Positions 1-33,488 of a DNA stretch of 33,524 bases are shown here, piece by piece. This DNA is from Cellvibrionales bacterium. GTDB lineage: Bacteria; Pseudomonadota; Gammaproteobacteria; Pseudomonadales; GM7GCV1. The translations under genes and the position numbers were made by a program. Every line of letters starts with the position of its first letter. Position 1 is the stretch's first letter. A model generated the notes under the pieces. That model did no database searches and was not told the DNA's origin. It saw only the letters and a list, made by a program, of their open reading frames with translations. The stretch is taken from NCBI GenBank assembly GCA_014323765.1, contig JACONM010000005.1:2858-36381 (forward strand), written 5' to 3'.

Positions 1-140
1 GCAATTTCTCCCGCCAAGCCCTCCACGCCACCCACCTAGCCCTAAAACACCCCAAAACCACCCAACCCATGCACTGGCAATCCCCCCCACCCCAAGACAT
101 CCACCAACTACTAACCACCCTAAGATCAAAACCCCCCTGA
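1..140 (+). CDS. rluD: RluD-family 23S rRNA pseudouridine synthase, C-terminal fragment
   Basis: Only the last 45 codons lie in the window, read from position 3 to the TGA at 138-140. The peptide contains RQALHA, then LALKHP, and ends in a PPPQDIHQLL-like segment. This is the pattern of the C-terminus of RluA/RluD-type synthases, which convert specific uridines of 23S rRNA to pseudouridine. The catalytic aspartate region lies upstream of the window. In many gammaproteobacteria rluD is followed by yfiH and clpB; here clpB follows directly and no yfiH is seen. The stop codon is inside the first copy of a palindromic repeat, so the last residues (SKPP) may have been altered by that repeat. RluD is preferred over RluA/RluC because of the clpB neighbour, but the fragment cannot settle it. 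Confidence 0.72.
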   Translation, partial: NFSRQALHATHLALKHPKTTQPMHWQSPPPQDIHQLLTTLRSKPP

Positions 141-236
141 CAAGGGGGGGGAAAGGGGGGTTGGTCTGGAAGGGAGGTTGCTCTTGAAGCCCCCTGACAA
201 GGGGGGACCAAATCGAAGCCCCCCTGACAAGGGGGG
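132..236. repeat. cluster of three GC-rich palindromes with core CTGACAAG
   Basis: Three near-identical palindromes sit at 132-151, 190-206 and 219-236. Each has a run of 5-6 C, then TGACAA, then 6-8 G. The second and third share the left flank GAAGC. Each could fold into a short hairpin with C/G arms. None is followed by a run of T, so they are not classical terminators. The first supplies the stop codon of the rluD-like gene. The same core, in reverse orientation, forms the stem of the hairpin ahead of rpsJ (9774-9790, 17 identical bases compared with copy 2). They look like a REP-like dispersed palindrome family, but one window cannot show how common they are. Confidence 0.8.
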
Positions 237-7449: not shown

Positions 7450-9537
7450 TTATTTTTTAGCCGCCCGTCGCTCGCGGGTCTCCTCGATCACCTTCTCCGC
7501 CACCTGTTGCGGGCAGGGCAGATAATGCGAAAACTCCATAGAAAACTGCCCGCGACCCGAAGTCATGGTGCGCAAATGGCCGATGTACCCGAACATCTCC
7601 GCCAGCGGCACCTCGGCCTTGACGCGCACCCCAGTGGTGCCCGGCTCCTGATCGCGAATCATTCCGCGCCGCCGGTTTAGGTCACCGATAACATCGCCCA
7701 CGTGCTCATCCGGGGTGAACACATCCACCTTCATGATCGGTTCAATCAGCTGCGGCCCGGCCTTCGGCATGCTCTGCCGATAGGCCCCCTTAGCCGCCAA
7801 TTCAAAGGCGACCGCCGAGGAGTCCACCGCATGATAGGCCCCATCGAAAAGCTCAATGTCCACATCCAGCATAGGGAAGCCCGCCAGCGGCCCTTCCTCC
7901 ATCATCACGGCAAAGCCCTTTTCAATGGCCGGAAAAAACTCCTTAGGCACATTGCCGCCTGCCACCGTCGACTTAAAAGTGAATCCCGTGCCCGGCTCGT
8001 TCGGTTTAATGCGGTAATCGATCTTGCCAAACTGCCCAGCCCCACCCGTCTGCTTTTTATGCAAATAGGTGTCTTCAATCGTTCGGGTAATGGTCTCGCG
8101 ATAAGCCACCTGCGGCTCACCCACCTGCAAATCCACCCCATAGGTGCGTTTCAAGATATCCACCTTGATATCCAAATGCAGCTCGCCCATGCCCTTCAGA
8201 ATGGTCTCGCCCGAATCCTCATCGGTCTCCACCCGAAAGGAAGGGTCCTCGGCAATCATCTTGCCAATCGCGATGCCCATTTTCTCCGAGCCGCTTTTAT
8301 CTTTAGGTGCCACCGCGATGGAAATCACCGGGTCAGGAAACACCATCGCCTCCAGAGTGCAGGGGTTATCGGGCGCGCACAGCGTGTGGCCAGTTTGCAC
8401 ATTTTTCATGCCGACCACGGCCACGATATCCCCCGCCTGCGCCCGCGCAATTTCATTACGGTCATCGGCATGCATTTCCACCATCCGCCCAATGCGCTCG
8501 GTTTTACCGGTGGCGGAATTGAGCACGGTCATGCCCTTTTCCAACACCCCAGAATAAATACGGATAAACGTCAGCGCACCAAAGCGGTCATCCATAATTT
8601 TGAACGCCAAAGCCCGCAGCGGCTCGGCGGGGTCTACAGTCGCCACCGCCCCGGTCGGCTCCCCCGCTTCATCGGTTAGCGGCTGCGGCTCGACTTCAGT
8701 CGGGCTCGGCAAATAATCGACCACCGCATCCAGAACCAGCTGCACCCCCTTATTCTTAAACGCCGAGCCACACAAGGTCGGAAAGAAATCCAGATTGCGC
8801 GTCCCCTTGCGAATGCAGCGTTTAATTTCTTCAACGGCAGGCTCCTCGCCCTCCATATAAGCCATCAGCAGATCATCATCCTGCTCCACCGCCGTCTCGA
8901 TCAGCTGCTCGTGATACTGCTCGACCAGCTCGATCATATCGGCCGGCACCGCCTCGATCTGAAAATTTTCCGGCAGCCCCGAATCGTCCCAGATATAGGC
9001 TTTCTTAGTCAGCACATCCACCACCCCGCAAAACTCATCCTCGCGCCCAATCGGCAGCGTCAGCACCAACGGACGGGCCCCCAGCACCTTCTTAATCTGC
9101 GCCACCACCCGCAAAAAGTCCGCCCCGATGCGGTCCAGCTTGTTGACGAAAATAATGCGCGCCACCTCGGAGTCATTGGCATACCGCCAGTTGGTCTCCG
9201 ACTGCGGCTCCACCCCACCCGAGCCACAGAACACCCCCACGCCGCCATCCAGCACCTTCAGGGATCGATACACCTCCACAGTAAAGTCCACATGCCCCGG
9301 CGTATCGATGATGTTCAGCCGATGCTCCTGCCAAAAACAAGTGGTCGCCGCCGACTGAATAGTGATGCCGCGCTCCTGCTCCTGCTCCATAAAGTCCGTG
9401 GTCGCCGCACCATCATGCACCTCGCCCGTTTTGTGAATCTTGCCCGTGAGCTTCAGAATGCGCTCAGTGGTCGTCGTCTTGCCCGCATCCACATGGGCAA
9501 AGATACCAATATTGCGGTAAGCAGCGAGGTCAGTCAT
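7450..9537 (-). CDS. fusA: elongation factor G, FusB/EF-G2 type
   Basis: A 695-residue translational GTPase that drives tRNA-mRNA translocation and, with RRF, ribosome recycling. G1 AHVDAGKT is at 14-21, DTPGH at 78-82 and NKLD at 132-135, followed by domains II-V to the C-terminus. The start [13 protein letters not shown] (ATG 9537) fits the family; the upstream TTG adds 29 unrelated residues. The segment [29 protein letters not shown], and the short loop before DTPGH, are characteristic of the second EF-G type of pseudomonads and vibrios (FusB, FusA2) rather than the str-operon FusA. That explains its position away from rpsL-rpsG-tuf. Whether a canonical fusA exists elsewhere cannot be seen here. 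Confidence 0.95.
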
Positions 9538-9725: not shown

Positions 9726-9754
9726 TTGACCTAAGCCGGGGCGGTCTATAAAAT
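9726..9754 (+). promoter_or_regulatory. candidate sigma70 promoter of the S10 operon
   Basis: TTGACC at 9726-9731 and TAAAAT at 9749-9754 are separated by 17 bases and match the consensus at 5 of 6 positions each. TATAAA at 9747-9752 is an alternative -10 with a 15-base spacer. Transcription would start near 9761, about 135 bases before rpsJ. No other comparable promoter is seen in the gap on this strand. Confidence 0.62.
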
Positions 9755-9767
9755 GCGCCCCTCTTTG

Positions 9768-9800
9768 ACGCTGGCCCCTTGTCAGGGGGCTGGCGTTTTT
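9768..9800 (+). terminator. terminator-like hairpin in the S10 leader (possible attenuator)
   Basis: A stem of 10 pairs (9769-9778 with 9786-9795, two of them G-U, extended by A9768-T9796) encloses a 7-base loop and is followed directly by TTTTT at 9796-9800. It lies downstream of the candidate promoter and upstream of rpsJ, so full-length operon transcripts must read through it. In E. coli the S10 leader is the site of L4-controlled attenuation. A similar role is inferred here, but the hairpin starts unusually close to the predicted start of transcription. Its core is the same palindrome as at 132-236. Confidence 0.6.
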
Positions 9801-9896
9801 GTGAGAAGCACCCGCAAAACAGCCAGTTAGCTCCTTTGTGGCCTGTAACTGTGCGCTGTTGAGCCTTGCTAAATCTGAAGTTGGCCGGAACACCCC

Positions 9897-10205
9897 ATGC
9901 CGAACCAAGACATCCGGATTCGTCTGAAAGCCTTCGATCATCGCCTGATCGATCGGGCGGCACGCGAGATCGTCGACACCGCCAAGCGCACGGGCGCGAC
10001 AGTGCGCGGGCCCATCCCGCTACCGACCCGCAAGGAACGCTACACCCTGCTGATTTCCCCGCATGTCAACAAGGATGCCCGCGACCAGTACGAGATTCGC
10101 ACCCACAAGCGGCTGCTCGACATCATCCAGCCCAGCGAGAAGACAGTAAATGCCATGATGACCCTAGACCTAGCGGCGGGCATCGAGGTACAGATCAAAA
10201 CTTAA
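9897..10205 (+). CDS. rpsJ: 30S ribosomal protein S10 / NusE
   Basis: 102 residues, against 103 in E. coli. S10 sits in the 30S head and also acts as NusE in antitermination complexes with NusB. The conserved ribosome-binding loop [11 protein letters not shown] is at residues 56-66, and the N-terminal [15 protein letters not shown] strand-helix unit is intact. GGAA 6 bases before the ATG is a modest ribosome binding site. First gene of the operon; an 88-base spacer separates it from rplC. Confidence 0.97.
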
Positions 10206-31500: not shown

Positions 31501-33488
31501 CCCGCCCCGTCAGGCATTGACCGCATCCGCGCCTTCGAAGGCCCAGACCGCCTCCTCGGTGAAGGCGGCAACGACCGCCTCGAAGGCGGCGAAGGCCGCG
31601 ACCATCTCGATGGCGGCCCCGGCAACGACCGCCTCGAAGGCGGCAAGCACGATGACACCCTCCACGGTGGCAAAGGCGATGACCAACTCTACGGCGGCCA
31701 GGGCAACGACCAACTCCACGGCGGCAAAGGCAACGACCGCCTTGAAGGCGGCACTGGCCGCGACCAACTCTACGGCGGCCCCGGCCAAGACACCCTAAGG
31801 GGCTGGAAAGGCAACGACCGCCTCCACGGTGGCCGCGGTGCCGACACCCTCAGCGGCGGCAGCGGCAATGATCAACTCGACGGCAACGCCGGCCAAGACC
31901 GCCTCACCGGCGGCCCCGGCAACGACCAATTCCACCTCCTCAATCCCGCCGGCACCATCGCCAACGCCGACACCATCACCGACTTCAACCCAGCCGCCGA
32001 CACGCTAGTCGTCTCCGGCACCACCCTCTGGTACGAGACCCGCGGCAAAGACATCACCGCCGAAACTCACCTGTACGTCGACAAAGCCCGCAGCCAAGCC
32101 CTAGCCGCCATCACCGGCACCCATAACCTATCCACTGCCACCATCCAAACCCCGGCAGGAGATGCAGCCCAAGCCCAGCCCCTAGGTTTCACCCTCAAAG
32201 CCGCAGACATCTCCGGCAACCGCGTCGGCCCCCCCGTCCCCGTCTCCGTCACTCGGGACGGCGACGACAACATCACCGGCGCCACCATCACCGAAGGCAC
32301 CCCCGGCTCCGCCACCATCACCCTCCGCCTCGACCTAGCCTCCCTACCCCCCACCCCCGTCACCGCCGCCGCATTCACCGCCACCTTCTCAGGCGCCACC
32401 TTTGTGCAAGACCAAACTCCAGAAGACCGCGCCAGAAACTCGGTCTGGCGAGCCGGCGCAATCCTAGATGGCAGCGGCCCAGACCCCACCCTCACCATAG
32501 AAAACGGCATCGCCACCATCGGCTTCACCCTCGCCCCCGACACCGCCGCCGCCGCCCTAATCATCCAGCCCCCCACCGAATCCAGCGTCTTCCAAGACGC
32601 CAACGCCATCGATGAAACCATCACCCTCACCCTAGCCCCCGCCAACGCCGCCGCCCGAGCCTACGACCTCCTCCCCGCCACCTACACTTTCACCTTCGCA
32701 GACGACGACGAAGCCCCCGCCCCAGACCCCGAACCCGAAACCGAACCAGAAACACCGGCCACCCCAACCCTCCGCGCCGCCAGCATCACCGGCTCCGCCC
32801 CCACCACCATCTTCACCCCCACCCGGGATGCCAACGACTACATCACCGCCACCACAGTCACAGAAGGCACCGCCAACTCCGCCGAAGTCAACATCAACCT
32901 CGAATTCACCCCCCCAACCAGCGAGGCCAGATTCACCGCCAACTTCCTAGGCAAAAGCGTCGATTTCACGGATGACTGGAGCACAGGGGTAACGGTAACC
33001 ACCCGCGATGGGCAGACGACGGCCATGCCAACAGTAGACATCGCGCTTGTTAACTCCATCCAATTCACCCTGCCCCCCAACGCCACCGCCGCCACCCTCA
33101 CCATCACCCCACCTTCCGCATCCGGCACTTTCCAAGACGACGACATGACAAACGAGTCGGTGACCATCAACCTCTCCCCTCAAAACAGCGCAGCAATCGC
33201 CTACGGCACACACCCCGCCATTGTCATCACCTTCGCAGAAGCCGACCAACCCACCCCACCGGCAAATGGGGCGCCGGTGCCGTAACGGGCGGAACGACGG
33301 CCGATGCGCTCGGTTTCCTTAGCAGCACATCATCGATAAACTACCTCACCAACACCAGCCCCAACAACATCGACCTCGCCATCCCCGCCAACACAACCAC
33401 CTTCGCCGTCATCCTCACCGTTGGCTGTCAAAGATTCCAGACAATTAGAAAAGCACCCAGCTCAAACCACCCCCCAAAAAACCCATGA
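31501..33488 (+). pseudogene. RTX / Calx-beta-like secreted protein gene, broken
   Basis: Frame 1 is open from 31351 to the TAA at 33283-33285 but has no ATG, GTG or TTG before 32404, so a start for the RTX part is missing. The translation first shows about 14 glycine-aspartate nonapeptides (31540-31938). A segment [18 protein letters not shown] follows, typical after calcium-binding RTX repeats. Then come two similar Calx-beta-like domains of about 150 and 130 residues, each ending near FADDDE/FAEADQ. An acidic linker rich in P and E separates them. After about 33255 protein-like sequence continues in frame 0 ([17 protein letters not shown]) to a TGA at 33486-33488. RTX proteins are usually exported by type I secretion. 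The product is likely truncated or not made. Confidence 0.6.
31540..31938 (+). repeat. RTX nonapeptide repeat array
   Basis: Roughly 14-15 tandem 27-base units encode variants of G-x-G-N-D-x-L-x-G, such as [18 protein letters not shown] and GSGNDQLDG. Such repeats form calcium-binding parallel beta rolls in secreted proteins. Units differ at the x positions and a few are degenerate ([27 protein letters not shown]). The array is part of the broken gene above. Confidence 0.9.

Follow-up and report, generated by a model that had tools for sequence, protein, structure and literature searches.

A start-proximal hairpin in the S10-operon leader of a Cellvibrionales bacterium and its resemblance to a dispersed repeat

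A strong hairpin lies between the promoter of the S10 operon and rpsJ in a Cellvibrionales bacterium, and part of it is identical to a palindrome dispersed through the genome. The original prediction was that the hairpin is built from this repeat, which may have been co-opted as an attenuator of the ribosomal operon. The locus thus raises the question of whether the element is a domesticated repeat or an inherited part of the leader. The window, i.e., the whole stretch of DNA analysed, comprises 33,524 nt of contig JACONM010000005.1 (GCA_014323765.1), contig positions 2,858–36,381 of the forward strand. The following features of the locus are relevant here:

7450–9537, minus strand: EF-G gene, divergent from rpsJ
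9726–9754, plus strand: predicted sigma-70-type promoter of the S10 operon, TTGACC-17-TAAAAT (10 of 12 consensus bases, 0.2 such sites expected)
9761–9896, plus strand: predicted rpsJ leader, 136 nt, 5' end CUCUUU, placed by spacing from the -10 region
9767–9797, plus strand: start-proximal leader hairpin, 14 pairs and a predicted 3-nt loop (folding), the outer stem common to another species of the genus (G001)
9775–9791, plus strand: CCCCTTGTCAGGGGGCT, identical to the core of the species-specific dispersed repeat
9796–9800, plus strand: T5 tract, terminator-like in character, within the family in this species only
9897–10205, plus strand: rpsJ, ribosomal protein S10, first gene of the S10 operon (NF001861, 161 bits)

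The gene for EF-G was located upstream of rpsJ on the opposite strand in all four family relatives as well, and the same kind of promoter preceded rpsJ in nearly all scanned relatives. The good promoter claimed ahead of rpsJ was borne out by its match to the consensus, and the spacing from the -10 region would place the transcription start of the operon at about 9761, upstream of the rpsJ ATG at 9897.

The hairpin, GACGCTGGCCCCTTGTCAGGGGGCTGGCGT, begins 6–8 nt past the predicted start and is followed by TTTTT. RNA folding paired positions 9767–9780 with 9784–9797, so that a terminator-like hairpin between the promoter and rpsJ is indeed present as described. The first 45 nt of the leader folded with -24.8 kcal/mol (z -4.5) and none of 200 shuffled sequences equalled that fold; the whole rpsJ leader was less exceptional (z -1.7). 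The T tract is followed by G and its first residues are able to pair with the stem. Only three to five of the T residues are free, because up to two can pair with G9767 and A9768.

The presence of a dispersed repeat was confirmed, as the 14-nt core CCCCTTGTCAGGGG gave 101 exact matches in the 1.88-Mb assembly and none for the reversed control; a lack of further copies, named beforehand as a refutation, thus does not apply. A shorter core, CCTTGTCAGG, occurred 127 times genome-wide. The typical unit reads AACCCCCCAAACC-CCCCTTGTCAGGGG-GGCTTC, often with a second core 30–60 bp further on. In the window, four matches to the core with up to two mismatches were found relative to 0.28 expected. Besides the one in the leader, three copies were mapped:

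134–147, minus strand: repeat core copy
188–204, minus strand: repeat copy matching the rpsJ hairpin over 17 nt
221–234, minus strand: repeat core copy

The rpsJ hairpin carries the exact 14-nt core and is identical over 17 nt to eight repeat copies. The reported 17-base identity to the reverse complement of an upstream copy was correct, except that this copy lies at 188–204, two bases to the left of the reported 190–206. No exact core was present in four family relatives, in which the two-mismatch counts did not exceed the reversed control, and a single copy was detected in one other genome of 57; of the genomes compared, this species alone thus showed an expanded family. A literature search for the core sequence returned no match. 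The repeat resembles REP-like dispersed intergenic palindromes, being a short and often paired G/C palindrome of which the genome has about 100 copies, but its family is expanded in one species only and the copy in the rpsJ leader has neither repeat flanks nor a partner.

Among sampled repeat copies, 92 of 94 were oriented by the sign of the local GC skew, which suggests that their spread or selection is linked to the direction of replication. The GC skew of the window (1–33524) was very strong, from -0.11 to -0.41. The S10 operon lies here on the C-rich strand (skew -0.165), whereas values from +0.03 to +0.13 were obtained for seven relatives checked and the median for 80 named relatives was +0.04. 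This reversal possibly reflects an inversion or a change of origin, which would leave the operon head-on to replication. A separate stretch on the plus strand of the window (31510–31940), adjoining uvrA, consists of 27-nt tandem repeats predicted to encode Gly-Asp-rich nonapeptides, similar to RTX-like calcium-binding repeats.

The rpsJ copy was an outlier of the repeat family. It alone of the 101 had no repeat flanks and no adjacent core: both AACCCCCCAAACC and GGCTTC were absent and no second core occurred nearby. Its flank score, calculated leave-one-out, was -30 bits relative to a median of +30, and the other low scorers were second cores of pairs, copies with shifted flanks or copies at contig ends. 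The copy is placed on the plus strand despite a local skew of -0.175, against the orientation kept by the 92 of 94, and it is the only plus-strand copy on its contig.

Evidence on the origin of the hairpin came from G001. In this species, a hairpin ACGCCGGC-TCCCCTTTGGTT-GCTGGCGT (-19.9 kcal/mol) follows the same promoter at an equal distance and is preceded by the same CTCTTTGACGC as in the window. The outer stem ACGCYGG..CTGGCGT is common to both, and the alignment showed CCCCTT.T..GG..GCT in common, i.e., 12 of the 17 'repeat' bases of the window hairpin. The genome of G001 contained no exact core, and near-matches were no commoner than for the reversed control. The co-option of a whole repeat element into the leader is not supported, since the repeat-free relative has the hairpin and the rpsJ copy lacks the flanks, the partner and the orientation of the repeat. 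We lean, with some reservation, towards reading the element as an inherited hairpin near the start of the S10-operon mRNA and not as a domesticated repeat.

The identity of the inner stem to the repeat core requires its own explanation. Under a fourth-order Markov model, the chance that an exact, isolated core arises somewhere in the genome was about 0.0025; for a random CCCC-N6-GGGG hairpin, some 26 background sites in the control count gave a value of about 0.013. Pure coincidence is uncomfortable as an origin because both genome-wide values are low. Given that CCCCTT is already present in G001 and that pairing is selected, the chance is estimated at roughly 1 in 64 to 1 in 256. Convergence is a possible origin because the 12 of 17 identical bases also occur in the repeat-free related species, and a cheap one because only about five bases of the window (G, CA and GG) are new relative to G001, two of which, GG, complete the stem and restore pairing. 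The resemblance of the hairpin to the repeat is real and probably convergent.

It is possible, if tentative, that a repeat copy was instead the template from which the inner 14–17 nt entered a leader hairpin already in place, by short-tract gene conversion or template switching, and a route through the microhomologies CCCCTT and GCT, both present in G001, is to be regarded with equal reserve. Such an event would account for the exact identity over 14–17 nt to a 101-copy family, the low chance expectation for an isolated core and the fact that the match stops where the leader sequence common with G001 resumes. However, no repeat flank was brought along, the small number of new bases, two restoring pairing, makes convergence cheap, and no alignable outgroup polarises the change. 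Either origin, convergence or conversion, is compatible with the chance estimates, and conversion concerns the origin of the inner stem only, so that it is compatible with a function of the inherited hairpin at the 5' end of the mRNA.

In this species, the hairpin with its T5 tract could also attenuate the S10 operon early by intrinsic termination, releasing an RNA of about 40 nt with conditional read-through. A d'Aubenton-Carafa-type terminator score of +17 to +27 agrees with such a role, as does the expectation that, EF-G being divergent, transcription of the plus strand across the hairpin comes solely from the rpsJ promoter. A genome of another family of the order (G021) has a hairpin and T5 at the equivalent place; its S10 leader (L048) carries an independent hairpin with TTTTTGT directly past the S10 start. 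Nevertheless, the T tract consists of just five residues, in part paired with the stem, no T tract follows the hairpin of G001 (terminator score -27 to -39), and a hairpin–T tract is also missing from the sister genus. Across the order, a strong hairpin followed directly by T5 was limited to two (this species and G021) of 55 distinct S10 leaders, and both readable members of G021's own family lack it. No antiterminator forming before the release point was found: the best alternative pairing partner in the leader, GTTAGCTCCTT (about 9826–9836), cannot prevent termination because it is located downstream of that point. Moreover, a strong constitutive terminator ahead of the S10 operon would be costly, and the rpsL and rplK upstream regions of the same genome have no comparable element, which also dismissed a general habit of hairpin–T leaders in its ribosomal operons. 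A bidirectional or 3'-end terminator was discarded as well: EF-G is transcribed divergently, and on the reverse strand the stem is not followed by a T tract.

An attenuator thus seems rather unlikely, and the attenuation suggested originally is not conserved even within the genus. Partial premature termination at T5 is possible in this species, to which the predicted terminator potential is restricted within its family; regulated attenuation at the rpsJ hairpin is unsupported. The combined scenario, in which the palindrome of a recently expanded, replication-oriented repeat served as template for part of a pre-existing S10-leader hairpin and, together with a new T tract, made it a species-specific attenuator, is very improbable. 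The element shares with attenuators of the rpsL-leader intrinsic terminator type (PMC2965389) a GC-rich hairpin and a T run between the promoter and the first gene, but differs in that no alternative antiterminator was found and there is no conservation in the genus.

The E. coli S10 leader, subject to L4/NusA attenuation, is the closest known system by operon: the operon is orthologous, the leaders are of similar length (136 versus about 172 nt) and both contain a terminator-like hairpin. However, no Rfam match was obtained at the gathering threshold (at E<5, only an irrelevant weak GlmZ match), the longest string in common with the E. coli leader was 8 nt, and the attenuator region of E. coli lies far down its leader, whereas the rpsJ hairpin is placed directly past the start. 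According to a review (PMC10931766), conservation of the E. coli-like L4 site does not extend to Pseudomonas. An L4-responsive leader of the E. coli type is hence scarcely credible here and was rejected, which agrees with the earlier remark that the two leaders differ in structure.

The leader hairpin was further considered against other S10 leaders. Across the order, these share much the same promoter, in most cases begin at a short pyrimidine tract and frequently contain a hairpin in the first ~40 nt. In 55 distinct leaders, the first 42 nt folded modestly better than upstream controls (median z -1.45 versus -0.79, p 0.03). In the start-proximal hairpin of Pseudomonas, double changes keep 3 of 11 pairs, and two pairs are broken in one or two sequences. 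The window hairpin corresponds in position, not in sequence, to the hairpins of Pseudomonas and the sister genus. A comparison of S10 leaders from relatives, as had been proposed, recovered the hairpin in G001 at the same place, without the T tract.

A boxA-like GYTCTTTA was present in 8 of the 55 leaders (e.g., L048, L054, L061 and L096) relative to 0.2 expected, often about 30 nt before rpsJ. As boxA upstream of rpsJ (NusE) was reported earlier in three genera (PMC5725501), these sites may widen that report. The rpsJ leader of the window has no good boxA, and boxA antitermination was rejected there, as the best match (6 of 8) lies downstream of the hairpin.

Stem-loops that stabilise mRNA from its 5' end are established (PMC7509114), and the position of the rpsJ hairpin, 6 nt from the predicted start, fits such a role. 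The likeness is that, in a highly expressed mRNA, a stable hairpin stands a few nucleotides from the predicted 5' end; the rpsJ stem differs in being unusually strong, with T5 behind it. Judged by position, strength and these precedents, the hairpin probably guards the 5' end of the mRNA. Transcription would start at about 9761, leaving the first 6 nt of the leader mostly single-stranded, and the next ~31 nt are computed to form the very stable hairpin. By structuring the 5' end of this very abundant mRNA, it may slow 5'-end-dependent decay, as its position and the known cases suggest. In this species, the inner stem is predicted to be fully paired and has come to match exactly the core of a repeat spread in the genome, which would have occurred by convergence or short-tract templated repair from a repeat copy, and T5 may add partial early termination.

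If the attenuator reading were true, sequence of a selfish repeat would have rewired how the most highly expressed protein operon is controlled. On the present evidence, the locus illustrates how a repeat match can mislead, since the leader hairpin is present without the repeat, and the comparison suggests that S10 mRNAs of the order often start with a start-proximal hairpin.
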